Of a stretch of DNA of 64,000 nucleotides, positions 12,135 through 30,706 are shown piece after piece. Origin of the DNA: Ferruginibacter albus (GTDB lineage Bacteria; Bacteroidota; Bacteroidia; Chitinophagales; Chitinophagaceae). The stretch spans positions 3,684,001 to 3,748,000 of the forward strand of contig NZ_CP083388.1 of assembly GCF_020042285.1 (NCBI RefSeq), in the 5' to 3' direction. The translations under genes and the position numbers were made by a program. The notes below the pieces were generated by a model. The model ran no database searches. It had not been told where the DNA came from and worked only from the letters and a program-made list of their open reading frames with translations. Position 1 is the first letter of the stretch; the number at the start of each line of letters is the position of its first letter.

Positions 12135-13367
12135 CTATTTATCCGCTACACATCTGAATCCTACATGTTCCATCCCGCTATCTTCAGTACTCTTCATACG
12201 CCGTGCAACCCTGTAACCCGAGCAATAAGAATCATTACATAAAAAAGAGCCGCCACGTATCACACGTTTAATTGCATAAGGCTCTTCCGGATCAAAGCTT
12301 TTATTGGGGCCTTGCGGGTTAATTACTCCGTCTGCTTTATTGACGGTGCTGTAATAGGTATTGTTATAATAATCACCGCACCATTCCCATACATTGCCTG
12401 CCATATCATACAAACCATAATGGTTAGGATCAAACGATCTTACAGGCGCTGCATAATAAAACTTATCCCACTGCGTATTCTTGTTAGGAAAACTTCCCTG
12501 CCAGGTATTGGCTTTTGGTTTTCCTGTTTCAACAGGTTCATTTCCCCATGGATAAATATTATTTTTCAATCCACCTCTTGCAGCATATTCCCACTCTGCT
12601 TCTGTTGGCAAACGTTTGCCTGCCCATTTGCAATAAGCCACGGCATCGTACCACGAAACATGCACTACGGGATAATTTTCTTTTCCTTTAATAGTACTAC
12701 CCGGGCCATGTGGATGTTTCCAATCTGCATCTTTCTTCCATTCCCACCACTGACTGTAATCATTTAATGAAACAGGCTGATCAGATGCATGAAAAACTAA
12801 TGAAGCAGGAACTAACTCACTTTCATCCGGCTTTTCTGTTCCCGGTGGCAATTGCTTTTTTAATTGTTCCCAATCTGGTTTTTGCTCTGCTGTTGTGATG
12901 TAACCTGTTGCCTTTACAAATTTTTCAAATGCTGCATTGGTTACTTCTGTTGCATCGATCCAATAACCGCTTACCGTTACTTTATGCTTTGGATATTCAT
13001 CCGGTGATGCCTGCTTATTATCTGCTCCCATTTCAAAACTTCCTCCTTCTACCCAAACCATTCCTTCATGCGAAGCTTTTGCTACTGTTGCCGATGAATC
13101 TTTGGTTGAATCGCTTGTATTATTATATCCAACGGTACTGAATCGCTTTGGTAAATTCGATTCGCAGCACAACGCATTTTTTTGTTTTGCAGTTGTAACA
13201 CTGTCTACTGTAACTGTTCCGCTATTATTTTTTGAATTGCAGGAAACAGCTGCCAAAAGGTATACCGTTGAAAGAAATGTGACACAACGATGTTGCCATG
13301 AAAAACCAATGCCTGTATCAAAATTTAATCGAAATGATTTTTTAGTCGTGGTAATACTTTTCATCAT
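12135..13367 (-). CDS. Formylglycine-generating enzyme (FGE), probable lipoprotein
   Basis: 410 residues. The FGE-sulfatase domain runs from G-M-V-W-V-E-G-G-S-F-E-M-G to the end. It contains R-L-P-T-E-A-E-W-E-Y-A-A-R-G-G, G-N-V-W-E-W-C and R-G-G-S-F-L-C-N-D-S-Y-C, the last matching the catalytic cysteine pair of true FGEs. This suggests an active enzyme that oxidises the Cys of C-x-P-x-R sulfatases to formylglycine, rather than a non-catalytic SUMF1-like protein. The N-terminus has a hydrophobic stretch ending L-L-A-A-V-S-C, a plausible lipobox, so it would sit in the periplasm where the two sulfatases of the operon are exported. It is the last gene, 3 bp after the fusion sulfatase. Confidence 0.9.
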   Translation of the reverse strand: MMKSITTTKKSFRLNFDTGIGFSWQHRCVTFLSTVYLLAAVSCNSKNNSGTVTVDSVTTAKQKNALCCESNLPKRFSTVGYNNTSDSTKDSSATVAKASHEGMVWVEGGSFEMGADNKQASPDEYPKHKVTVSGYWIDATEVTNAAFEKFVKATGYITTAEQKPDWEQLKKQLPPGTEKPDESELVPASLVFHASDQPVSLNDYSQWWEWKKDADWKHPHGPGSTIKGKENYPVVHVSWYDAVAYCKWAGKRLPTEAEWEYAARGGLKNNIYPWGNEPVETGKPKANTWQGSFPNKNTQWDKFYYAAPVRSFDPNHYGLYDMAGNVWEWCGDYYNNTYYSTVNKADGVINPQGPNKSFDPEEPYAIKRVIRGGSFLCNDSYCSGYRVARRMKSTEDSGMEHVGFRCVADK

Positions 13368-13370
13368 TTA

Positions 13371-16283
13371 TTATTTTAAAACTAAACCTGTAATAATTTT
13401 TTCTACATCCCCTTTTTGTGTATCTGCTCCCGTTCTTCGCCAGATAATTTTATCATCATTGTATACGATCAATGTGGGAACAGCATTCGCTTTAAAGGTT
13501 CCTGCAATAGCAGGATTATCGTACACATCTATCTTTACTACCTTCAACGTAATGCCGTATTCTTTCGATAAAGAATCAACCGTTGGTTGCAATTTTCTAC
13601 AGCCGGGACAATACCTCGTGTGCAGATCCAACAACACCAATTTGTTTGTTGAAGTGATCTTTTTAAAATCAGCAATGGTAAAATTATCTTTTGATGTAGA
13701 ATAGATAGGCTTGGCATTTCCGATCCATCCGCCGATGCCGCCATCCAACACATATACCTGCGTAAATCCTTTTTCAGTTAATTCATTGGCGAGCTGCACG
13801 CTTCTTCCATTGCCGATCGCATACGTAAATACCGGCTTTGTTTTATCAAGCTTACTTAACTGTTCTGCATAATTGCTTTGCAGCGAATTAATATTTATTG
13901 CATTGCTAAGATGATTGATAGCAAACTCTTCCGGCAAACGCGTATCTATAATTTGTGCAGCAGTTGCTTGATTCAATTTTGCTTCGAAAGAATCTACCGG
14001 CAATACAATTGCATTTTCTTTTGTTGTTGCTGAAGGTTGTTCAACAGTTAGCAACTGTACCCTTCCATTAAAAGGAAATGTGCCAGGATATTTCTTGGTA
14101 ACAGGAGAATTTAAATCTCTGCCTACACTTACACCTTCTGAACCAAATGTGTTTAGATATTTATTCTTTGCTGTGATGGTTGCTTGCGCTTGCTGTTCTC
14201 CATTTACTGATAGTATTACAGTTGAGTCGATGAATTGAACGTTGATCGTGTATGTTCCTTCAGTAATAACTTTTGAGGATGACAAAACAGTTTCACTTAA
14301 TCCATCACTTAAGAGATAAATTAATTTTCCGTTTTGTATATACAAAGATGTTCCGCCAAACAAACCACCGTTTGCAAAAATTACTCCCTGTGGGTCTTTG
14401 CCTGCAATAACGTTAGCAGTTATACTAACATTTCCTTTACCAATATTTATTTTTGTACGAACAGTTGTTCCTTCATAAATAACACGCTTCGGTTTTATTT
14501 CAGGCTGCGGCAACCCTTCCGTATAACTTTTTAAAGGATAGACATTGTTCTGTATTGCCAATGAATCAAACAAAGCTTTTAGCTCTTCCAGCTTTTGAGG
14601 TTCTTTAGCTGCAAGATCTGTCGTCTCTGTCCAGTCTTTATTAATGTTATATAATTCCCATTTATCCTGGCTAAATGGACGTGGATTGAAATTGATGTCT
14701 CCATTCTTTTCGCCGAATGTATTTCTTGGATGATACACTGCTGCTTTCCAACCATCTTTATAAACAGCACGTCCGCCATGCAATTCATAATACTGAATAG
14801 TATGTTGAGATGCCGCAGAAGCATTATTAAATGAATATGCTAAACTTGTTCCCTGTATTGGGTCTTGCTTATAGCCGTTGATGGTATCAGGAACTTTTAA
14901 TCCTGTTAACTCAATAGTAGTTGGCAGAATATCTATCACATGCCCGTATTGAAAACGAATGCCACCTTTTTCTTTTATTCCTTTAGGATAATAAACGATC
15001 AACGGATTGTGTGTGCCGCCTTCTGAATTGGCATCACTCTTCCAATAGCGGAAAGGCGTATTCGCAGCTTGTGACCAACCCAATGGATAATTAGGTGATG
15101 AAAATTCTGTTCCTATCTTATCGTATTGGCTCAATAAAAATTTAATGTCTTCGCCTTGAGATTTTGTACTAAAGCCTGAAGTGCCTGTGTACGTACCTTC
15201 TTTACTGGCACCATTATCACCGATCATTAGGAAGATAACCGTGTTATCAATAATGCCTGTTTGTTTTAAATAATTTATAACTCTTCCCACTTCATAATCT
15301 GTATAAGACAAATAAGCCGCATACACTTCCATAAAATGCGCATACACTTTTTTCTCATCTGCACTTAATGAATCCCATGCTTTAACACCTAATTGTCGTG
15401 GAGGCAATACTGTACCTGCAGGTAATAAGCCTAATGCCTGCTGCCGTTTGAATACTTTTGTACGATAAGCATCCCAGCCATTATCAAACTTACCTTTGTA
15501 TTTATCTATCCATTCTTTTGCTACCTGGTGCGGTGCATGTGTAGCGCCGGGAGCAAAGTATAAGAAGAAAGGTTTATCTGCATCTGCCGATTTTTGATTT
15601 GCGATGTATTCAATTGCTTTATCAGCAAGCAACTTATTTAAGTGCGTAGTATTGGGCTCGATATTTACCGGATTGGTTTCATCTATCAATAACGGATGCC
15701 ATTGATCCGTAGCGCCGCCCATAAAACCAAAGAAATGTTCAAAACCTCTGCCTGTTGGCCAACGATTGTAAGGTCCTGCTGCAGAAACATCTTCAGGACG
15801 TGTAGAATGCCATTTACCTAAAGCAAATGTATTGTAACCATTCTCTTTAAAAATCTCTGCCGCTGTTCCTGCTTCAAAAGGAATATCTCCGTCATAACCA
15901 GGGAAACCTGTTGCTAATTCAGGATGATGGCCCATTGCCACATGATGTGCATTACGACCCGTTAGTAACGCTGCTCTTGTAGGGCTGCATAATGAGGTTG
16001 TATGAAAATTCGTGTAACGTAAACCGTTAGCTGCCAATGTATCGAAGTTAGGCGTTGCTACCAAGCCTCCAAAAGTAGAGCTGGCACCAAATCCGACATC
16101 ATCGATCAATATCCAAACTACGTTAGGAGCGCCATCTGCTGCTTTTATCTTTTCCGGCCAGGACTGCTTGCTGTCTGCCAATGTCTTTCCTATTACACCT
16201 TTAAATGGTTGCCGTGCATCTCTTTGAGCATAGACACTTAGGTTAATTACTGCAGCTAATACTATTATTACAAACTTTTTCAT
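13371..16283 (-). CDS. Arylsulfatase fused to LamG-like, rhodanese-like and thioredoxin domains
   Basis: 970 residues with a signal peptide (MKKFVIIVLAAVINLSVYA-Q). The sulfatase domain (~50-590) has the metal pair D61-D62, the modified-Cys motif C99-S-P-T-R, and G-D-N-G-A-S. A concanavalin/LamG-like beta-sandwich follows (~610-755). Then comes a rhodanese-like domain (~765-850) whose active-site Cys is replaced (Y-A822-I-G-N-G-R-S), so sulfur transfer is unlikely. A thioredoxin domain with C892-P-G-C ends the protein. The tail fusion is unusual: most arylsulfatases are 450-600 residues. It lies between the sterol-desaturase-type gene and FGE, with gaps of 6 and 3 bp. A redox role for the thioredoxin in reducing FGE or the substrate Cys is a hypothesis only. 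Confidence 0.92.
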   Translation of the reverse strand: MKKFVIIVLAAVINLSVYAQRDARQPFKGVIGKTLADSKQSWPEKIKAADGAPNVVWILIDDVGFGASSTFGGLVATPNFDTLAANGLRYTNFHTTSLCSPTRAALLTGRNAHHVAMGHHPELATGFPGYDGDIPFEAGTAAEIFKENGYNTFALGKWHSTRPEDVSAAGPYNRWPTGRGFEHFFGFMGGATDQWHPLLIDETNPVNIEPNTTHLNKLLADKAIEYIANQKSADADKPFFLYFAPGATHAPHQVAKEWIDKYKGKFDNGWDAYRTKVFKRQQALGLLPAGTVLPPRQLGVKAWDSLSADEKKVYAHFMEVYAAYLSYTDYEVGRVINYLKQTGIIDNTVIFLMIGDNGASKEGTYTGTSGFSTKSQGEDIKFLLSQYDKIGTEFSSPNYPLGWSQAANTPFRYWKSDANSEGGTHNPLIVYYPKGIKEKGGIRFQYGHVIDILPTTIELTGLKVPDTINGYKQDPIQGTSLAYSFNNASAASQHTIQYYELHGGRAVYKDGWKAAVYHPRNTFGEKNGDINFNPRPFSQDKWELYNINKDWTETTDLAAKEPQKLEELKALFDSLAIQNNVYPLKSYTEGLPQPEIKPKRVIYEGTTVRTKINIGKGNVSITANVIAGKDPQGVIFANGGLFGGTSLYIQNGKLIYLLSDGLSETVLSSSKVITEGTYTINVQFIDSTVILSVNGEQQAQATITAKNKYLNTFGSEGVSVGRDLNSPVTKKYPGTFPFNGRVQLLTVEQPSATTKENAIVLPVDSFEAKLNQATAAQIIDTRLPEEFAINHLSNAININSLQSNYAEQLSKLDKTKPVFTYAIGNGRSVQLANELTEKGFTQVYVLDGGIGGWIGNAKPIYSTSKDNFTIADFKKITSTNKLVLLDLHTRYCPGCRKLQPTVDSLSKEYGITLKVVKIDVYDNPAIAGTFKANAVPTLIVYNDDKIIWRRTGADTQKGDVEKIITGLVLK

Positions 16284-16289
16284 TACTGC

Positions 16290-17396
16290 TTATTGAATAT
16301 TAAATGCAAAATCGGGTTGTGATTGTTTTCTGAAAGAATCAGCGATGGGATGTTCCTGAATAATCGTTGGAACTTCATCTCCTACTTCAGGTCCGTTCTT
16401 AGACAATTCACTTCCTTCTTTTTTAGATTTGAAAATTGGCCATAAAAATTGCGCCTGCCATTCTTCTGCTTTATAAAAACTAATGCCATATGATGAAGGG
16501 TACTTTCTTGTGATAAGTCCGGTTCCGAATATTACATCCCAGATAAAAAACATATTACCGAAGTTGCCTTTGTAATAACCAACGCCATCATCAAACGTAT
16601 CTGCGTGATGTGCATGATGCGTAGCAGGCGTAGAGATCAATCTTTCTAAAACCCAAGCAAACGGATGTAAAATCTTATACTTGTAAAAAGGCTTGTCCCA
16701 TGCAATGCTTGAATGAGCAGACAAGGTTATCACTGATTTTATAACAGTAACGAATAAGGCTTGCGGTCCTAATCCTAAATACACCAATGTTGCCGTAAGA
16801 TATATTTGTGAAAAGAAAACAGTGTACAAAAAGTTCTGTCTGCTTGCCATTGCCATACCCATGTACGGTGCCGAGTGATGTGTACGATGAAAGCGCCACA
16901 TAAAAGGAACCTGGTGATGCAAACGGTGATACCAATATTGTGTAAGGTCGTCAGCAACTGCAATGATCAATGATCCACCCCAAAAAGGCACCCACCAAAA
17001 ATGATTTGCCAATCCCGGTAAAACAAAGGGTAATAATTTCAACCCGAAGAAAGCTGTTACCGGTACTAACAAAATTTTAGGTGCAATAAAGCAAACGATG
17101 TCTATTGCTCTTTCCGTTTTTGTCCATTTATTATCATACAGTCCTAATGCAAATTCTGCAATACCTAATACCAACGCGATTGCGATAAAGCCCCAGGATT
17201 GAAGGTTTGTAAATACAGGTTTAATAAAACTGAATACAGCCGGCACATTTATTTGAGCTGAAGCTTCATTAAGCCACGGCGTTTCACCTTTTATAGCAAA
17301 ATAAAGATAAACTGCTACTACCGGTAACGCGTAAATGAAAAGACTTATAGTTCCATCTTTCAATATTTTTCTTCTTAATGTTTTATCGATTGCCAT
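16290..17396 (-). CDS. Sterol desaturase / fatty acid hydroxylase family di-iron enzyme
   Basis: 368 residues with four to six membrane helices and the three histidine boxes of the family: Y-H-R-L-H-H, F-H-R-T-H-H, and T-H-H-A-H-H. These ligate a di-iron centre that inserts oxygen into or desaturates lipid-like substrates. Its place inside a sulfatase operon suggests that the natural substrate is a sulfated lipid, sterol or other hydrophobic sulfate ester; that is inference. It starts 10 bp after a 40-residue membrane peptide and ends 6 bp before the fusion sulfatase. Confidence 0.88.
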   Translation of the reverse strand: MAIDKTLRRKILKDGTISLFIYALPVVAVYLYFAIKGETPWLNEASAQINVPAVFSFIKPVFTNLQSWGFIAIALVLGIAEFALGLYDNKWTKTERAIDIVCFIAPKILLVPVTAFFGLKLLPFVLPGLANHFWWVPFWGGSLIIAVADDLTQYWYHRLHHQVPFMWRFHRTHHSAPYMGMAMASRQNFLYTVFFSQIYLTATLVYLGLGPQALFVTVIKSVITLSAHSSIAWDKPFYKYKILHPFAWVLERLISTPATHHAHHADTFDDGVGYYKGNFGNMFFIWDVIFGTGLITRKYPSSYGISFYKAEEWQAQFLWPIFKSKKEGSELSKNGPEVGDEVPTIIQEHPIADSFRKQSQPDFAFNIQ

Positions 17397-17539: not shown

Positions 17540-19405
17540 TTATTTTACTATTGGCGCCTGTGTATCACTGTCGTTCGGGTGATGTATTCTTTTATTATAC
17601 ACATCATACCAATCGATCAATGGATATAAATGATTCTTTTGAGCCTGCTCATCAAACACCTTTTTTAATTCTGCTAATTTTTCAGGATATTTTTTTGCCA
17701 GATCAACACGCTCGTTGAAGTCTTCGTTCAGGTTATACAATTCCCATACATCTTCATCAAAACTTTTATCAGCGATCTTTTCTCCCGGTTTAAAATCAAA
17801 ATCGATATTGTATGGATGATGCGCTGCTTCTGCTTTCCATCCATCTTTATAAATAGAACGTGAACCAAAGATGTAATAATGCTGAATAGTATGTTTGGAC
17901 GCAGCTTTTGCATCATCAATAGAATAAGCTAATGAGGTTCCTTGTATTACATCCTGCTTAACGCTTTTAATATATTCCGGCGCTTTAATTCCTGTAAGAT
18001 CCAACGTAGTAGGTAAGATATCTATCACATGCCCATATTGATTGCGGATACCACCTTTGTCTTTAATTCCTTTTGGATAAAAAACGATCAGTGGATTATG
18101 TGTGCCACCTTCTGCATTGGCATCTTGCTTCCACTCACGGAAAGGCGTATTCGCTGCTTGTGCCCAGCCCAATGGATAATTGGTGAATGCAGCGGCAGTA
18201 CCTATCGAATCAATATCTTCCAGGTTTGCTTTTAAATATTCTGCTTCTGTTTTAGTGCGGGCAGAATTTGTTTTAGGTTCGATCACGCCTTCATTGGTAC
18301 CTTCTTTACTGGCGCCATTGTCACCGATAATTACATACACCAATGTATTATCTAAAAGGTTATTTTCTTTAAGATAGTTGATCAATCTTCCGATCTGGTA
18401 GTCGGTGTAAGTAAGGTAGCCGGCATATACTTCAAAAAAACGTTCGAATAATTTCTTTTGATCTTCCGTCAAAGAATTCCATGCAGGCACACGAGAATTA
18501 CGTGGAGGTAATTGTGCATAAGAAGGAACAACACCTAATTTCTTTTGGTTCGCCAATACTTTTTCACGGAATACATCCCAGCCTTCATCAAATTTTCCTT
18601 TATATTGATCGCTCCAATACTTATCTACCTGGTGCGGTGCATGTGTTGCGCCGGGTGCATAATATAAAAAGAAAGGTTTGCCGGGAGCTGCTTTTTGCTG
18701 ACGATTGATATAGAAGATAGCCTTGTCAGTTATCTGTTCATTCAAATGCCTTCCATCAGGTGTTGCGTGTGCATCGTCTTCTACTAAATCAGGTTTATAC
18801 TGATCTGTTTGAGAACCTAAGAAACCAAAAAAATGTTCAAAACCTTTACCGCTTGGCCAACGATCAAATGGACCAGCATCTGTAGCATCTTCATCAGGTG
18901 TTAAACCATATTTACCTACTGCAAATGTATTGTAGCCATTGTCTTTTAATATCTCTGCAATGGTTCCATCTGTAGAAGGAATCCTTCCGTCATAGCCGGG
19001 GAAGCCCGCTGACATGGAGATATGAGAGAAACCTCCTTCATGAACAAAGTGACTGTTACGTCCTGTCAACAATGCTGAACGTGTAGGTGCGCAAATAGCT
19101 GTAGTATGAAAATTCGTGTAACGTAGACCGTTATTAGCCAAGCTATCCAACGTTGGAGTTCGTATCACTCCGCCAAAAGCAGAAGAAGCGCCATAACCAA
19201 CGTCATCTAATATAATGAGTACTACATTGGGTGCACCGGCCGGTGCTTTTGCTACAGGCGCCCACCACTCTTTTGAATCATCTAATGTTTTGCCAACTTT
19301 GCCCTGGTAAGTTTGTTCAGGAGCTTGTGCCTGTGCATTTGTTACAAGCAATAGGCCTGCAATTGCTGTTGCTATCAATAAAGCAATATTGTTTTGTTTT
19401 TTCAT
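17540..19405 (-). CDS. Secreted arylsulfatase
   Basis: 621 residues with a signal peptide (cleavage near A-Q-A-Q). A Cys-type sulfatase: D-D at 67-68, the formylglycine motif C105-A-P-T-R-S-A-L-L-T-G-R, and G-D-N-G-A-S with the downstream metal Asp/Asn. It is clearly paralogous to the sulfatase half of the 970-residue protein (shared stretches such as T-H-A-P-H-Q-V and G-H-V-I-D-I-L-P-T-T) and probably arose by duplication inside the operon. It hydrolyses an organic sulfate ester in the periplasm or outside, after activation by the FGE encoded four genes downstream. Confidence 0.94.
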   Translation of the reverse strand: MKKQNNIALLIATAIAGLLLVTNAQAQAPEQTYQGKVGKTLDDSKEWWAPVAKAPAGAPNVVLIILDDVGYGASSAFGGVIRTPTLDSLANNGLRYTNFHTTAICAPTRSALLTGRNSHFVHEGGFSHISMSAGFPGYDGRIPSTDGTIAEILKDNGYNTFAVGKYGLTPDEDATDAGPFDRWPSGKGFEHFFGFLGSQTDQYKPDLVEDDAHATPDGRHLNEQITDKAIFYINRQQKAAPGKPFFLYYAPGATHAPHQVDKYWSDQYKGKFDEGWDVFREKVLANQKKLGVVPSYAQLPPRNSRVPAWNSLTEDQKKLFERFFEVYAGYLTYTDYQIGRLINYLKENNLLDNTLVYVIIGDNGASKEGTNEGVIEPKTNSARTKTEAEYLKANLEDIDSIGTAAAFTNYPLGWAQAANTPFREWKQDANAEGGTHNPLIVFYPKGIKDKGGIRNQYGHVIDILPTTLDLTGIKAPEYIKSVKQDVIQGTSLAYSIDDAKAASKHTIQHYYIFGSRSIYKDGWKAEAAHHPYNIDFDFKPGEKIADKSFDEDVWELYNLNEDFNERVDLAKKYPEKLAELKKVFDEQAQKNHLYPLIDWYDVYNKRIHHPNDSDTQAPIVK

Positions 19406-19435: not shown

Positions 19436-21025
19436 TTATTCCCAACCCGGGTTTTGTTTAAAGTTTGGATTACGTCCCTGGTACAGATCGATCTCTGATT
19501 GAGGAATAGGGAACAGTGTATCTTTTAATGTTGCTGCCGCTTTTGGATTACCGGGCATAGCATATACTGATTGCAGGTAATATTGTCCGGGTCCTTTATC
19601 TGTTCTTCTTACCAGATCAAACCAACGCTGACTTTCCTGTATGAACTCTCTTCTTCTTTCAGTAAAGACAGTATCCCTAAATGATGATTGATTCAAAGCA
19701 GATACATCATATGTATGATCTGTATAACTTCCATTAGAAGTGTAAGAATTAAATGCTCTTGCCCTGATAATATTTATTGCCACATATGCATCAGGAGTTG
19801 GTCCACCGTTTAATTCGTTCAACGCTTCGGCATATAACAACAATACATCTGCATAACGAATTACAGGAAAGTTGATCTTGCTGTTAGCTCCCTGGTTACC
19901 TTGTAAAGCAGTAACAAAGCCAGTACTTTGATCAACAAACTTTAAGAAATTATAGTACGGCCATTTAACCCATTTGCCTGTTTGGGTATTGTATAATGAA
20001 TCGTAAAAAGAAACACTTCTTCTTTGATCATTTACATTGAATACATTTTCAATAACTGTTTTGTCTGCAGGAATATCACTGGTATAGGCAGAAGTGCTCC
20101 AGGTAAATGAGCTGATATTTTGTGTACTGGTAAAGCCTCCGGTAGTTCCATTGAACTGTGCAGAGAAAATATGTTCTTTACCATTTTTTGTTGCCGCCTG
20201 GAATGCATCGACAAATTTCGGGAACAGGTCATACCCATAATTACCCGTTGTAGCCTCGGTAAGGTTAGCTGTCCCGGCAGTGATCACTTGCTTAAGTTCT
20301 TTAACTGCATTTGCCCAGTCCTGTCTTGTCACATATACTTTACCTAACAAAGCATGTGCAGCGCCGCTTGTTACTCTTCCTACATCAACACCTGAATATT
20401 TTGCAGGCAATGAAGTAGCAGAATCCAGGTCTTCAATTATCTGGCGATACACAGAATCCTTAGGAGTACGACCTACCAGGATATTTGCATTCGCCACTGT
20501 TCCTGCATCATGCAATACCAATGGCACATCACCAAATAAGCGAACCAGGTTAAAATATAACAATGCTCTTATAAATCTTGCTTCTCTTACCAGGTTAAGG
20601 GCAGAGTGTGTTGCATCATAAAATTTATCAGCAGGTATCGTCGGAATTTTATCGATCGCAACATTTGCTTTGTCAATTCCCCAATATAATTGTGCATATA
20701 TTTTATGTACTCTGTCGTTGGTACTTACATACGTTGCAGTGCCTAATGCACGCACATCCGGGTTTGTATTGGATGGACTGTACACCTGGTTATCACTTGG
20801 ATTGTCTACTAATAAATTCAGGTTACGACCATAGACAGGAAAGTCATTATTTATATCTGTTGTTAGAGTGCTGTACACCGCTGTTACAGCAGCAATTGCA
20901 TCATTCTGTGTTTTATAAAAATTGTCTGTAGTGATGGTGCCCTGCGGGTTTTCATCCAGCTTGTTGCACGATGCGATCGTAACAAGGGTTATTATGATGG
21001 GTAGTATTATAGATATCTTTTTCAT
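19436..21025 (-). CDS. SusD/RagB family outer-membrane lipoprotein
   Basis: 529 residues. The lipoprotein signal ends V-T-I-A-S-C-N. TPR-like helices and the SusD C-terminal signature R-R-R-E-F-I-Q-E-S-Q-R-W-F-D-L-V-R are visible. It forms the surface lid of a SusCD nutrient importer with the preceding susC, 20 bp away. Here the ligand is presumably the sulfated compound attacked by the two sulfatases. Confidence 0.95.
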   Translation of the reverse strand: MKKISIILPIIITLVTIASCNKLDENPQGTITTDNFYKTQNDAIAAVTAVYSTLTTDINNDFPVYGRNLNLLVDNPSDNQVYSPSNTNPDVRALGTATYVSTNDRVHKIYAQLYWGIDKANVAIDKIPTIPADKFYDATHSALNLVREARFIRALLYFNLVRLFGDVPLVLHDAGTVANANILVGRTPKDSVYRQIIEDLDSATSLPAKYSGVDVGRVTSGAAHALLGKVYVTRQDWANAVKELKQVITAGTANLTEATTGNYGYDLFPKFVDAFQAATKNGKEHIFSAQFNGTTGGFTSTQNISSFTWSTSAYTSDIPADKTVIENVFNVNDQRRSVSFYDSLYNTQTGKWVKWPYYNFLKFVDQSTGFVTALQGNQGANSKINFPVIRYADVLLLYAEALNELNGGPTPDAYVAINIIRARAFNSYTSNGSYTDHTYDVSALNQSSFRDTVFTERRREFIQESQRWFDLVRRTDKGPGQYYLQSVYAMPGNPKAAATLKDTLFPIPQSEIDLYQGRNPNFKQNPGWE

Positions 21026-21045: not shown

Positions 21046-24000
21046 TTAAAATGTTACGTTAAGCCCGATCGTATATGTTCTTGCATTGGGATACACTCCA
21101 TAATCAATTCCCGGTTGAAGATTATTTTGATCGTAGAAATTTGCTTCGGGATCTAATCCTGAATAATTTGTTATAGTCAACAGGTTTTGTGCTGATACAT
21201 ATAAGCGTAATTGTTTTGCCAGAATTTTATGTGCAACACTTTTTGGAAAGTTGTAGCCAAAGGTGATATTCTTTAAACGTAAGTAAGAACCATCTTCAAT
21301 GTAAACATCTGAAACCTGCACTACCGGTGCATTCGTAACTTTTGGCGTTTTGCCATTTGGATTGTTTACCGAATCCCAACGATCTAACAATGTTGCTGAC
21401 ACATTACCTGTAGTAGTAGTTTTTTCTAATTGCTGTTGTATCAGGTTAAACAACTTACCACCAACAGATGCCTGGAAGAAAAATGACAGGTCGAAATTTT
21501 TATACGTAAGTGTATTATTAAAGCTTGCTGTAAAATCAGGCTGTGCACTTCCTAAATTTTGCTTATCAGCAGTTGTGATAGTAGCGCCCGTCACTCCAGG
21601 CGCATGCAAATATTTTCGATCTCCCGTTTGTTGTGATACGCCTGATAATTTTGCTGCAGGGTTTGCTCCATACACATCATCAGTAGTCAATAAGCCGTCT
21701 GTTTTGTAACCCCAGAAAGTACCAACCGGTAATCCAACTTTTACTATAACCGGCGACACCTGACCGGTTGGTGCTACAGGAAATATTGCGGGATTAGGGC
21801 CAAGGCTTAGAACTTTATTTGAATTAGATGCATAGATCAATGTTGATTTCCATGAGAAGTCTTTTGTCTTGATATTTTCTGTGCTCAATGATAACTCTAA
21901 CCCTTTATTTTCAAGGCTTCCAATGTTCTCAGATACAGAAGCATAACCTGTTGATAATGGAACCAATCCTGAGCCGCTGATGTATAGGTTGGTTGTTTTT
22001 TTATAATAGTAATCTGCTGTTAATGTAATTCGATTGTTTAAAAACCCGATGTCAACACCTGCATCATATTGCGCAGTAGTTTCCCAGGTAAGATCAGGAT
22101 TAGACAATTGCGTAGGAGCTAAACCGATATTGGCACTAAGCGGACTTCCATAATAATACCCGTTAAATCCTTCCAAACCTAAAGAGCTGTATGCAGGGAA
22201 GTTTGCATTACCTACGCTACCGGCAGTTAATCTAACTTTTAAATTATTAATTGTTTTAGATAATGGTTTAAAGAAATCTTCATCCGATGCATTCCATGAA
22301 AAACCTGCTGAGGGGAAGAAGCCCCATTTTTTATTAAGCCCTGCAACCGAAGCGCCATCTGCTCTTCCTGTTAAGGTAAGATTGTATTTATGTTTGAATG
22401 AATAAGAAACCCTACCCAACCATGAATTAATTATTGACTTGCTTTCTCCACTTGCAGCGCCTGGATTAGAAGCGAGATTGAGGTTATTATACGCTGTAAT
22501 ATCATTAGGGAAATTATAACCACCTGCAAATGCGTATACTGATCTTAAATATTGTGTAGTATACCCTGCCAACACATCAAAGAAATGTTTGTCGTTGATC
22601 GAATGATTATAAGAGAAAGTGTTTTCATTCAACCACGTTAATGTATTAATATTTGTTACTGAACCAACGCCTTTATAAGTTCCGCCATTACTACCCAATG
22701 AAGTATAAGAAGGTGTATAGTAATTTAATTTGGTATTTAACTGATCTGCACCAAACGTCGTTTTGAAAGTAAGATCTTTTGTGATCTTATATTCGCCGGA
22801 AAGATTGCCTAATACACGTCCAAGATTTACCTGGTTCGTAATTGAGTTAATATCCTGCAACGGATTAACAGAAAACTGTTGACCGTTTACGGTATAAAGA
22901 GTGGGTGCAATAGAAGGTTGATAGCTTACATTATAGCTGCCGTCTTTATTAGTAACAGCCTGTAATGGATTAAACAAGTATAGGCCTGGAAAAGCTGCTG
23001 TATTAAAGTTAATACTGTTGTATGCAGTACCTACTAATTTATCTTCAATAGAATTACTTCCTAAAATGCTAACATTCACTTTAAAATCCTTTGAGTAATT
23101 CTTTTCATAGTTCACCTTTGCTGAATAGCGTTTGAAATCTGTTGCCGTTACAATACCTTTTTGATCAAAGTAATTACCTGAAATAGAATACCTTGATTTC
23201 TCATCTCCTCCGTATAATGTAAGCTGATGGTTTTGTGTAGCACCTTGTCGTAATGCAGAACCTACCCAGTCGCCGTTAACACCTGCATTACCTAAAGAAT
23301 CTATCAACAATTTTGATACAGAAAGTCCGGGTCCTGAATTACTTGGCTGAAGACTTGGTGTAGCCGCATATAGGTCATCAAAATACTTTGCCCACTGCGG
23401 ACCATTTAATAAGGATAATGTTTTAGTTGCATCTTGTATACCATACGATGCACTGTAATTGATATTGTTGCTTCCTTTTGTTCCTCTTTTTGTTGTAATG
23501 ATCACTACACCATTCGCACCACGTGAACCATAGATAGCTGTTGCAGATGCATCTTTCAATATATCGATCGATTCTATATCATAAGGATTGATAGTGGAGA
23601 TACCATTTGTTGAAACCCCTGTAACAGAAGGTATCACAGCAGAAGGTGAAGCAAAGTTCACCAGGCTGTTATCGTTGTAATAAATAAATCCATCAATTAC
23701 ATACAAAGGATCGTTACCAAAGCTCAGTGAGTTACCACCGCGTATGCGTATGCTGGAGGTTGCGCCGGGCTGCCCGGAACTTTGTGTTACCACTACACCC
23801 GCAACAGATCCTTGTAATAAATTATCAAAGGAAGTTACAGGACGGGTAAGCAGGTCTTTAGAAACAGTAGCAACAGAGCCGGTTACATCTTTTCTTTTTT
23901 GTGTACCGTAACCCAATACTACTACATCTGCCAGCTGATTGCTTTGTTCAACCAATTCTATGTTGACGAAACTATTATCACTAATAGTGATCTCTTGTGC

Positions 24001-24270
24001 CTGGTAACCAACAAAACTAACGGTAAGGTATACCGGTAGTTTTTTATACGTCTCTAATTTAAACTCTCCTTTATTGTCTGTTGTAACAGCGTTGGTAGAA
24101 CCCTTAAGACTTATAGAAGCGCCGGTTAAAGGTGTCTTGGTTCTAGATTCAATTACTTTCCCTTTTAGTATCGTTGGTTCCTGCGCTTGTGCGGAAGAAA
24201 CCAACAAAAGAAATAGTGATAAAAATATTATTGTGTGTTTATAAATAAAACTGCGATTAGTTTGGTTCAT
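21046..24270 (-). CDS. SusC/RagA family TonB-dependent receptor
   Basis: 1074 residues from the ATG at 24270, which gives a clean signal peptide (...IIFLSLFLLLVSSAQAQ); an upstream in-frame ATG at 24348 would put a hairpin arm into the coding region and lacks a signal. A carboxypeptidase-regulatory-like domain (~35-115) is followed by the plug (V-V-V-L-G-Y-G-T-Q-K-R-K-D-V-T-G-S) and the 22-strand barrel ending in an aromatic-rich strand. First structural gene of the sulfatase operon; it follows a Cys3 leader ORF and hairpins. Confidence 0.95.
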   Translation of the reverse strand: MNQTNRSFIYKHTIIFLSLFLLLVSSAQAQEPTILKGKVIESRTKTPLTGASISLKGSTNAVTTDNKGEFKLETYKKLPVYLTVSFVGYQAQEITISDNSFVNIELVEQSNQLADVVVLGYGTQKRKDVTGSVATVSKDLLTRPVTSFDNLLQGSVAGVVVTQSSGQPGATSSIRIRGGNSLSFGNDPLYVIDGFIYYNDNSLVNFASPSAVIPSVTGVSTNGISTINPYDIESIDILKDASATAIYGSRGANGVVIITTKRGTKGSNNINYSASYGIQDATKTLSLLNGPQWAKYFDDLYAATPSLQPSNSGPGLSVSKLLIDSLGNAGVNGDWVGSALRQGATQNHQLTLYGGDEKSRYSISGNYFDQKGIVTATDFKRYSAKVNYEKNYSKDFKVNVSILGSNSIEDKLVGTAYNSINFNTAAFPGLYLFNPLQAVTNKDGSYNVSYQPSIAPTLYTVNGQQFSVNPLQDINSITNQVNLGRVLGNLSGEYKITKDLTFKTTFGADQLNTKLNYYTPSYTSLGSNGGTYKGVGSVTNINTLTWLNENTFSYNHSINDKHFFDVLAGYTTQYLRSVYAFAGGYNFPNDITAYNNLNLASNPGAASGESKSIINSWLGRVSYSFKHKYNLTLTGRADGASVAGLNKKWGFFPSAGFSWNASDEDFFKPLSKTINNLKVRLTAGSVGNANFPAYSSLGLEGFNGYYYGSPLSANIGLAPTQLSNPDLTWETTAQYDAGVDIGFLNNRITLTADYYYKKTTNLYISGSGLVPLSTGYASVSENIGSLENKGLELSLSTENIKTKDFSWKSTLIYASNSNKVLSLGPNPAIFPVAPTGQVSPVIVKVGLPVGTFWGYKTDGLLTTDDVYGANPAAKLSGVSQQTGDRKYLHAPGVTGATITTADKQNLGSAQPDFTASFNNTLTYKNFDLSFFFQASVGGKLFNLIQQQLEKTTTTGNVSATLLDRWDSVNNPNGKTPKVTNAPVVQVSDVYIEDGSYLRLKNITFGYNFPKSVAHKILAKQLRLYVSAQNLLTITNYSGLDPEANFYDQNNLQPGIDYGVYPNARTYTIGLNVTF

Positions 24271-24318
24271 TGTATTTTTTATAAGCTGATAATGATTAAT
24301 GGAAAGGACAAACCTCTT

Positions 24319-24403
24319 CCGGCACACAGACAAAAGCCTGTGGCACATGAATATGTTACCACCACATAAGCCTATGCTCTACAGGCTAATGTCTGTGTGC
24401 CGG
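24319..24403 (-). promoter_or_regulatory. Long leader hairpin upstream of susC, with two competing small hairpins
   Basis: Arms of 14 bp (CCGGCACACAGACA / TGTCTGTGTGCCGG) plus an inner 7 bp (AGCCTGT / ACAGGCT), separated by a 2-nt mismatch and enclosing a 39-nt loop. On the RNA (minus) side the 5' arm also can form CCGGCTTTGCCGG (24400-24412), and its inner part AGCCT...AGGCT (24370-24388 region). These exclude the long hairpin. It sits between the leader ORF and susC. No T-run follows, so it is not a classic terminator. Confidence 0.6.
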
Positions 24404-24437
24404 CAAAGCCGGAATTAAATGAATAAGTAAAGGATGA

Positions 24438-24530
24438 TTAACAACAACAATAAATGCTGGAAAAGAAAATGGAAAGAATCAGTAACTCTTTTTGTTTACC
24501 GTACCCCGCGTGAGAATGTAGTGTCTGCAT
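24438..24530 (-). CDS. Putative cysteine leader peptide (30 residues, ends Cys-Cys-Cys)
   Basis: A short ORF on the operon strand, 167 nt upstream of susC. It starts ATG CAG ACA CTA, runs 30 codons through a hydrophobic stretch L-L-I-L-S-I-F-F-S-S-I-Y and ends TGT TGT TGT TAA. Three Cys codons just before the stop, ahead of alternative RNA hairpins and a sulfate-ester operon, fit a ribosome-stalling leader that senses charged tRNA-Cys. Cysteine-responsive attenuation by polycysteine short ORFs is known in mycobacteria; extension to this locus is inference. Confidence 0.6.
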   Translation of the reverse strand: MQTLHSHAGYGKQKELLILSIFFSSIYCCC

Positions 24531-24577
24531 GTTAATTAAGTTTTTAACTTACTAAATGACACTTGTCGGTGGTAAAA

Positions 24578-24611
24578 CAAGTATATTTTTATTAGTCTAG
24601 TAATTTGGTAG
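24578..24611 (-). promoter_or_regulatory. Candidate promoter and operator of the sulfatase operon
   Basis: TATACTTG (24578-24585, minus strand) differs from TAnnTTTG by one base and lies about 48 bp before the leader ORF start. Where the -33 box should be there is none; instead the dyad CTACCAAATTACTAG (24597-24611, imperfect) and ATTA-N6-TAAT (24591-24604) overlap the region. A weak promoter with a regulator site is plausible. Confidence 0.35.
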
Positions 24612-24826
24612 GGTAAAAGTAGAACGTTTTTTTGAATTGAAAAAATTTTTTTTGATTTTTTTGGAAACTACTTTCTTGACTGCTTTTTTAAGCCTTGATA
24701 AATTTTTATTCAGGGTTTGTTTTGTAAAAATAATTAGCTGTATTAGCAGATATGATTTTTAATTAAACCGTTATGAATTATTGGCTTAATAAAATCCGAG
24801 CTTCGAAATTTATATTATCTCATAAA

Positions 24827-30415: not shown

Positions 30416-30706
30416 TTTATAACAAGTTTATTGAAAAATGGTTTTTATGGCGTGCCCAGGGGTCGGGCTTTACGCTGCAATCTTTTTGATCCATGCTCAT
30501 AACCTTCTCACGCAAAAAGTATTTCCGCTTCAATCCCTCACGCACTGTGCGATGCAGTTTGCCTTATTCGTATCCTATTTTAAATCGCACAAACAATATA
30601 CGATAACAGCTTTCCGATAGTTTTTGCATAATTTGCTTCTCCTGTTAAAGGAAATAAAAAATCATCCAGTATATTTGTTACTTACTCTGGCTAACAGCTT
30701 CAAATT
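30416..30706 (+). promoter_or_regulatory. Intergenic region with -7 element TATATTTG before adk
   Basis: 291 bp between the divergent msrB and adk genes. TATATTTG at 30670-30677 is an exact -7 match 29 bp before the adk ATG; the -33 box is poor. A 60-codon plus-strand ORF inside shows no domain and is not called. Confidence 0.4.

Follow-up and report, generated by a model that had tools for sequence, protein, structure and literature searches.

A conserved leader ORF ending in cysteine codons ahead of a SusCD-sulfatase operon in Chitinophagaceae, a probable cysteinyl-tRNA-sensing attenuator

In the E. coli tnaC leader, a ribosome held at the stop codon of the upstream ORF (uORF) masks a Rho site, and the nascent peptide senses free tryptophan. 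Masking of a Rho site at the uORF stop is likewise proposed for the leader described here, but the proposed trigger is a shortage of tRNA. A trp-type attenuator has an intrinsic terminator before its first gene, whereas a terminator scan of the present leader (24250-24700) found none and a looser script reported one weak site.

Leader peptides with Cys codons have been described in several bacterial groups. In mycobacteria, polycysteine leaderless short ORFs are associated with cysteine-dependent attenuation (Canestrari 2020, as cited in the accessible portions of PMC9031893, PMC9094748, and PMC13236596), in agreement with the original prediction, which had named mycobacteria as the known case. 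In the cys/cbs operons of Mycobacterium, P. acnes, and B. longum, leader peptides contain a Cys run, and Rho has been proposed to act there (PMC1262725). In Rhodobacterales, the uORFC-8-2 motif precedes cysS and has tandem Cys codons in its uORF, usually at positions 14-15, and an intrinsic terminator with a U-run (PMC8632094). Within Bacteroidota, there are clues to leader-peptide attenuation at amino-acid biosynthesis operons of Flavobacterium psychrophilum (PMC9723704), and sORFs are present within long 5' UTRs of B. thetaiotaomicron (PMC7366714).

Like the mycobacterial form, the leader of Ferruginibacter albus analyzed here is a short ORF with adjacent Cys codons that precedes a gene. It differs from what the accessible portions of those papers describe in its phylum, its SusCD-sulfatase target, and its structured RNA flanks. 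Many of the uORFs before susC also seem to have a 5' leader, by a rough estimate from predicted promoters, unlike the leaderless mycobacterial form. The Cys run near the stop and the absence of conserved terminator hairpins are shared with the actinobacterial cys/cbs leaders; those belong to biosynthesis operons, and loop-loop pairing is not described for them in the accessible part of the source (PMC1262725). Tandem Cys codons are shared with uORFC-8-2, and cysS is among the Bacteroidota targets too, but the Bacteroidota Cys codons abut the stop, and the terminator scan differs as given above (PMC8632094, accessible part). The F. psychrophilum clues concern the same phylum and leader-peptide attenuation as well; the accessible part of that paper describes no Cys or sulfatase case (PMC9723704).

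Among the matches listed in a search of titles and abstracts of open-licence literature, none describes a poly-Cys leader in Bacteroidota or one before SusC. Because Cys-run leaders are known in actinobacteria and Rhodobacterales and none was found for Bacteroidota, the SusCD form appears to be new, as the original prediction had suspected. The comparative sequence evidence makes it highly probable (about 0.83) that the uORF is a cysteinyl-tRNA-sensing ribosome attenuator of a sulfate-ester scavenging operon.

The leader ORF and its operon

The window, meaning the whole 64,000-nucleotide stretch of F. albus DNA that was analyzed, contains the leader ORF and the following genes.

24438..24530, minus strand: leader ORF ending Cys-Cys-Cys-stop, read from the sequence
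21046..24273, minus strand: susC, TonB-dependent outer-membrane transporter (Pfam Plug, CarbopepD_reg_2)
19436..21025, minus strand: susD (Pfam SusD_RagB)
17540..19405, minus strand: Cys-type sulfatase (closest PDB entries: 4cxk/1hdh arylsulfatase group)
16290..17396, minus strand: fatty-acid-hydroxylase-type membrane enzyme (Pfam FA_hydroxylase)
13371..16283, minus strand: Cys-type sulfatase fused to rhodanese and thioredoxin domains in a single polypeptide (domain search)
12135..13367, minus strand: formylglycine-generating enzyme (FGE), sulfatase activator (Pfam FGE-sulfatase, 281 bits; CX4C pair)

The leader ORF (5' end at 24530) has 30 codons and encodes the peptide MQTLHSHAGYGKQKELLILSIFFSSIYCCC, followed by the stop. 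It ends in TGT TGT TGT TAA, just as predicted, with the Cys codons at 24441-24449. The likely start of susC is the ATG of its signal peptide at 24273. Counted to this ATG, the gap from the uORF stop is 164 nt, which corrects the 167 nt given originally. An alternative in-frame ATG at 24348 falls within a hairpin.

Pfam gives the operon order after the uORF as susC-susD-sulfatase-FA hydroxylase-sulfatase-FGE, so the two sulfatases and the FGE that had been predicted are there, along with SusC/D and the FA hydroxylase. The FGE has only matches below the cut-off to FGE-like families, such as GldK, in NCBIfam. Both sulfatases carry a CxPxR site and the FGE its CX4C pair. The best PDB group for the first sulfatase is the arylsulfatases 4cxk and 1hdh (E about 1e-65 to 1e-64), presumably the P. 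aeruginosa enzyme. In sulfur-starved P. aeruginosa, the arylsulfatase gene atsA is up more than 95-fold, according to the accessible part of PMC12581299. Elsewhere in the window, a Flavo-1 RNA motif (Rfam RF01705) is found at 30457-30555.

TGYTGYTGYTRA is counted 71 times in the F. albus genome. When a start codon was required and overlap with any frame of at least 110 aa on either strand was disallowed, only the leader ORF and one other ORF (L046:1408-1512, ending in YCYCCC) survived. The latter was set aside; the next same-strand ORF is 658 nt away and non-sulfur by eye, no sulfur gene was seen near it, and it is probably a chance occurrence. The uORF peptide matches only itself and one weak hit (E 1.0) in its own genome, thus there are no paralogous leaders at the sequence level.

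Conservation of the cysteine run and its other targets

The first set of relatives came from a SusC scan of genome contigs and comprised 32 loci, 17 at 60% identity or more and 15 at 35% or less. A short ORF with 4 to 6 terminal Cys residues is present in all 14 close loci that have enough upstream DNA and in none of the 15 distant ones. Sulfatases follow in 14 of the 17 orthologous loci versus 0 of the 15 distant loci; the three orthologous loci where none was seen (L008, L012, and L018) are on contigs shorter than 5.4 kb. When 394 genomes of the family were searched in a second round, the gene was present in 31, from 17 of 101 genera, and the Cys run in 24 of 27 loci with upstream DNA other than that of F. 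albus. In total, 34 of 37 non-redundant orthologous leaders, the window included, have the Cys run, and in 31 of these CCC abuts the stop. Loci with too little upstream DNA (L115 with 321 nt, L118 with 210 nt, and L008, L010, and L018 at contig edges) or any locus (G147) were left out, and L113, L114, L116, L117, and L137 were removed as duplicates of leaders in the first set. The near-identical pairs L014/L019, L131/L132, and L135/L136 were retained.

The run is CCCSC in L135 and L136 and CCCCMCC in L129. The uORF of L121 is Cys-rich with scattered Cys codons and a single Cys before the stop. The leaders of the orthologous operons L110 and L112 (2 of 37) have no Cys run, and these two, together with L121, count against a Cys-sensing attenuator.

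The terminal Cys run stays constant across relatives whose SusC is 49-69% identical to that of the window. The uORF varies in length, the RNA downstream of it folds differently, and the peptide body is kept only among close relatives. This comparison of upstream regions came out opposite to the lack of conservation that the original prediction had named as refuting, and it supports the original interpretation of the ORF as a probable cysteine sensor. It also bears on whether the product is a working Cys-rich small protein that binds metals or thiols or has a redox role. The conserved C-terminal Cys cluster would suit such a protein, but neither the body nor the length (12 to 60 codons from the in-frame ATG) is conserved beyond close relatives, only the run at the stop is stable, and poly-Cys uORFs accompany cysS and cysH as well. 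A functional small protein is thus very improbable.

It is even harder to credit that the (UGY)n run is a protein-bound RNA motif whose translation is incidental. TGT and TGC are mixed, and the listed runs have C or U at every third position, as an RNA motif might also demand. However, the stop follows directly after the run in 31 of the 34 non-redundant cases, with all three stop codons in use, and in 34 of 35 non-redundant leaders an in-frame ATG precedes the run and the frame stays open between them (in L129 the sole ATG is inside the run).

Controls point to the residue as well as to the position. Among 40 leaders, five of them duplicates, CCC-stop short ORFs were found in 36, SSS-stop in 1, and LLL-stop in 2. 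The flanks of 27 loci contain 4 CCC-stop short ORFs in a total of 935,844 strand-bases, and three of the four belong to a conserved second poly-Cys leader.

This second leader (L009:5268-5330, L011:2372-2434, and L013:5151-5213) lies just ahead of the susC operon and precedes a short ORF and then an FA-hydroxylase-like gene.

A wider survey for five Cys codons plus a stop covered 79 genomes of the family and 118 of the phylum, with the two known susC sites G060 and G047 excluded. Of 97 site entries examined, 15 are intergenic short ORFs. The genes that follow them are cysS in four cases (by eye in L168 and L208), cysH in two, and, once each, those for a solute-binding protein, an alpha/beta hydrolase (MetX-like by eye), a carbonic anhydrase, a PhyH dioxygenase, a CarbopepD_reg protein, and an unknown protein. 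For three (L173, L177, and L204) there is no downstream ORF in the stretch examined. Starting instead from cysS, a poly-Cys uORF no more than 72 nt away was seen for 5 of the 29 genes inspected, with three of the 29 starts unplaceable (L241, L244, and L258), and one further gene has only CC, 202 nt off. The presence of poly-Cys uORFs ahead of cysS and cysH argues for cysteine sensing. On the other side, the F. albus cysS has no such uORF, nor has any other sulfur gene in the survey of that genome. The susC operon is the steadiest poly-Cys target among the genes examined.

The cysS uORFs in the same family are located about 50-72 nt upstream (L158, L161, L168, L208, L239, L243, L250, L259, and L260). 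Several are apparently near-leaderless by eye, as is one metX-like uORF, and the four cysS leaders that were folded have no strong hairpin. The two cysH uORFs (L159 and L163) lie 42-48 nt upstream, with a GTCTA..TAGAC-like palindrome near the promoter.

Promoter operator, post-stop stretch, and RNA architecture

Upstream and downstream of the Cys codons, the following features were recognized in the window.

24614..24621, minus strand: presumed -7 box TACTTTTA, directly upstream of the operator, inferred from L009, L011, and L119
24591..24611, minus strand: palindromic promoter operator CTACCAAATTACTAGACTAAT, consensus CTACYAAWTTNGTAGACTAAT, one window match with 1 mismatch
24561..24582, minus strand: 5' hairpin P1, apical loop UUUACCACCG, 7-nt core at 24568-24574; beats 500 of 500 flank shuffles
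24495..24509, minus strand: uORF-internal segment GCGGGGTACGGTAAA, a partial complement of the P1 loop; 22 of 500 codon shuffles match its pairing
24398..24437, minus strand: C-over-G pyrimidine-rich stretch (C=11, G=5 of 40), a possible Rho loading site
24319..24403, minus strand: large hairpin P2 in the uORF-susC gap, loop GGUGGUA (24357-24363), stem UAUGU/ACAUA, from folding; 7-bp complementarity to the P1 loop

The operator pattern had no match in 100 shuffles of the window, versus the one real match. Its 22-nt form is found with up to 4 mismatches in 28 of 35 non-redundant leaders, a count that has no shuffle control. In the F. albus genome, 11 sites with up to 3 mismatches compare with 10 for the reversed control, so the operator is not significant by count there, and its weight is the location of the best matches. 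The best other sites are before a TonB receptor and before an unnamed membrane-protein-like gene, and their locus holds the sulfate assimilation genes cysD, cysN, cysE, cysK, cysJ, and cysI. The recurrence in 28 leaders and the presence at the cys locus would also fit an operator that controls the operon alone, with the uORF as a passenger. A passenger is not expected to keep its Cys run over the SusC divergence given above and repeated changes of leader architecture, and there is little chance that this explanation is correct.

The binder of the operator can only be guessed at; it might be an Rrf2-family protein. The genome has one such gene, and the open-licence literature searched gave no paper on Rrf2 control of a cysteine or sulfate assimilation regulon in Bacteroidetes. 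That gene (L266:5078-5488) is divergent from a peroxiredoxin gene and has, by eye, a degenerate operator copy in the preceding 75 nt.

The presumed -7 box is, we assume, of the Bacteroidota TAnnTTTG type. It directly precedes the operator in 3 of 14 type A leaders (L009, L011, and L119; types are defined below). Type B leaders have a TAnnTTTG-like box 31-33 nt past the operator start in 18 of 21 cases. An alternative box in the window, TATACTTG at 24578-24585, would make the transcript begin within P1. From the presumed promoter elements to the uORF ATG, the distance is a few to about 100 nt, a rough estimate from predicted promoters.

The 40 nt after the stop are rich in C and poor in G, both in the 35 susC leaders (C 24.4%, G 13.0%) and in 13 other poly-Cys leaders (C 25.6%, G 10.8%; L173 and L204 were excluded here and from leader folding). 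None of 2000 random placements in the uORF-susC gap of the 35 susC leaders equals this skew. Since the terminator scan found no intrinsic terminator and the post-stop 40 nt are C-rich and G-poor, masking of a Rho site by the stalled ribosome is the first choice for the output. The Cys run abuts the stop, as would be expected if the stalled ribosome masks at the stop. Against Rho masking stand the group of L009, L011, and L013, where G exceeds C after the stop, and the looser script, with which weak terminator-like sites appear in 5 of 35 leaders, one of them inside the P2 arm of the window. The Rho step taken on its own has nearly an even chance of being right.

Leader folding separates several architectures. 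In type A (14 non-redundant leaders, the window included), P1 lies 5' of the uORF and P2 beyond it, with the loop sequences (A/U)ACCACC in P1 and GGUGGU(U/A) at the apex of P2. Complementarity between the two loops extends over 7 bp in 13 of the 14 leaders and over 6 bp in L121; the window and L138 both have a compensating U-A pair in place of A-U. A pattern search found the 5' motif in 15 non-redundant leaders and the 3' motif in 13, all 13 of which carry both; no non-redundant leader has the 3' motif without the 5' motif. In each of the 14 leaders, P1 is better than at least 482 of 500 flank shuffles. P2 beats at least 489 of 500 in 12; it is weak in L009 (445 beaten, 55 as good) and no better than shuffles in L128 (394 beaten, 106 as good).

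The spacing from the start of GGUGG within the uORF to the first Cys codon is exactly 40 nt in 9 of the 14 leaders, 37 nt in L014 and L019, and 34 nt in L138. Variants occur in L121 and in the window, where the segment is more distant from the Cys codons than GGUGG is in other leaders. In the 14 leaders, between 0 and 22 of 500 codon shuffles pair as well with the P1 loop as this segment does. Because GGUGG in the uORF can pair with the P1 loop, this loop has two possible partners.

The same Cys sensor might therefore have an output through RNA structure, instead of or besides the masking of a Rho site. The ACCACC of the P1 loop would pair with either the uORF GGUGG or the GGUGGU of P2, and susC translation or transcription would be altered. 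The loop complementarity and its compensating swap, the uORF pairing and its fixed spacing, and the position of GGUGG, which would be just behind a ribosome stalled at Cys, favor this possibility. In alignment A2, both partners have changed in 9 of 11 stem pairs of P1 and P2, and 1 of 500 shuffles attains the covariation score. However, only 62% of the P1 cells and 76% of the P2 cells pair in the register of A2, where stem registers shift, a slide of the partners by one column still leaves 8 pairs with both partners changed, and 115 of 500 shuffles have at least as many further pair types. L138 is misaligned in the P2 part of alignments A1 and A2, so the covariation test understates it; the loop comparison handled L138 separately. 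The exceptions L121, L009, and L128 also count against an RNA switch, as does a transcription start taken from predicted promoters. Moreover, both loop elements are missing in 21 of 35 leaders that retain the Cys codons, and the cysS and cysH leaders have no such hairpins. An RNA-structure output is quite possible, though short of even odds, and its probability overlaps with that of the preferred reading, the Cys-sensing attenuator with Rho-site masking.

Other hairpins are present in 20 of the 21 leaders without the loop pair, and by eye they fall into two groups, B1 (7 leaders) and B2 (13 leaders). The hairpin of L134 was not viewed; this leader is counted as type B, and as B2 in the tree. 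The B1 leaders (L003, L004, L015, L124, L125, L126, and L133) have a covarying stem with a near-invariant loop, GUAACGCCAAUCACUUAC, near the susC start. A B1 RNA model run with stricter filters against 117 family genomes gave three hits. Two are known poly-Cys susC leaders; the third is weak (E 0.0045), and no Cys-run uORF was seen there. In these 117 genomes, the B1 RNA is found with confidence only at the susC operon.

In the B2 leaders (L020, L111, L122, L123, L127, L129-L132, L135, L136, and others), an A-tract leads into a GGCCGG..ACUG..CAGU..CCGGCC-like hairpin some 100 nt upstream of susC. It has the appearance of an opposite-strand terminator, yet it recurs across leaders.

No Rfam leader family matched at the gathering score in the window or in the loci of seven relatives. 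A T-box-like role of GGUGGU was considered and dropped, as there is no Rfam match and its complement is present in cis.

On the SusC tree, which took in L110 and L112, the three architectures A, B1, and B2 require 11 changes, versus a minimum of 2. These changes indicate that one sensor has persisted through repeated replacement of the leader architecture.

Proposed mechanism and implications

Support is good for the sensor but not for the output. When cysteine is plentiful, ribosomes would pass the Cys codons, terminate, and depart, and the C-rich, G-poor stretch would be exposed. Rho, or an equivalent block, would then halt transcription ahead of susC. When Cys-tRNA is scarce, a ribosome would be held on the Cys codons against the stop and would cover the post-stop stretch, and RNA polymerase would proceed into susC and the sulfatases. 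A promoter layer may be added by the sulfur-linked operator, perhaps with an Rrf2-family regulator. In type A leaders, a kissing-loop switch may serve as an additional or alternative output.

A broader proposal has two parts that must both hold. The Cys-stalled ribosome would choose between P1-P2 kissing and P1-uORF pairing with no intrinsic terminator involved, and the same sensor would be plugged into at least three RNA output modules (A, B1, and B2). Together they would define a new class of riboregulator. We regard this combination as tentative, with the odds leaning against it.

The SusCD nutrient system is usually seen as a means of carbon acquisition. If the Cys-sensing reading is right, this system would be tied to the sulfur state of the cell through the translation machinery. 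The Cys run at a uORF stop would provide a sequence rule for finding sulfur-controlled genes in Bacteroidota. With one sensor behind several natural leader architectures, the sensing and the output of attenuation may be separable by experiment.
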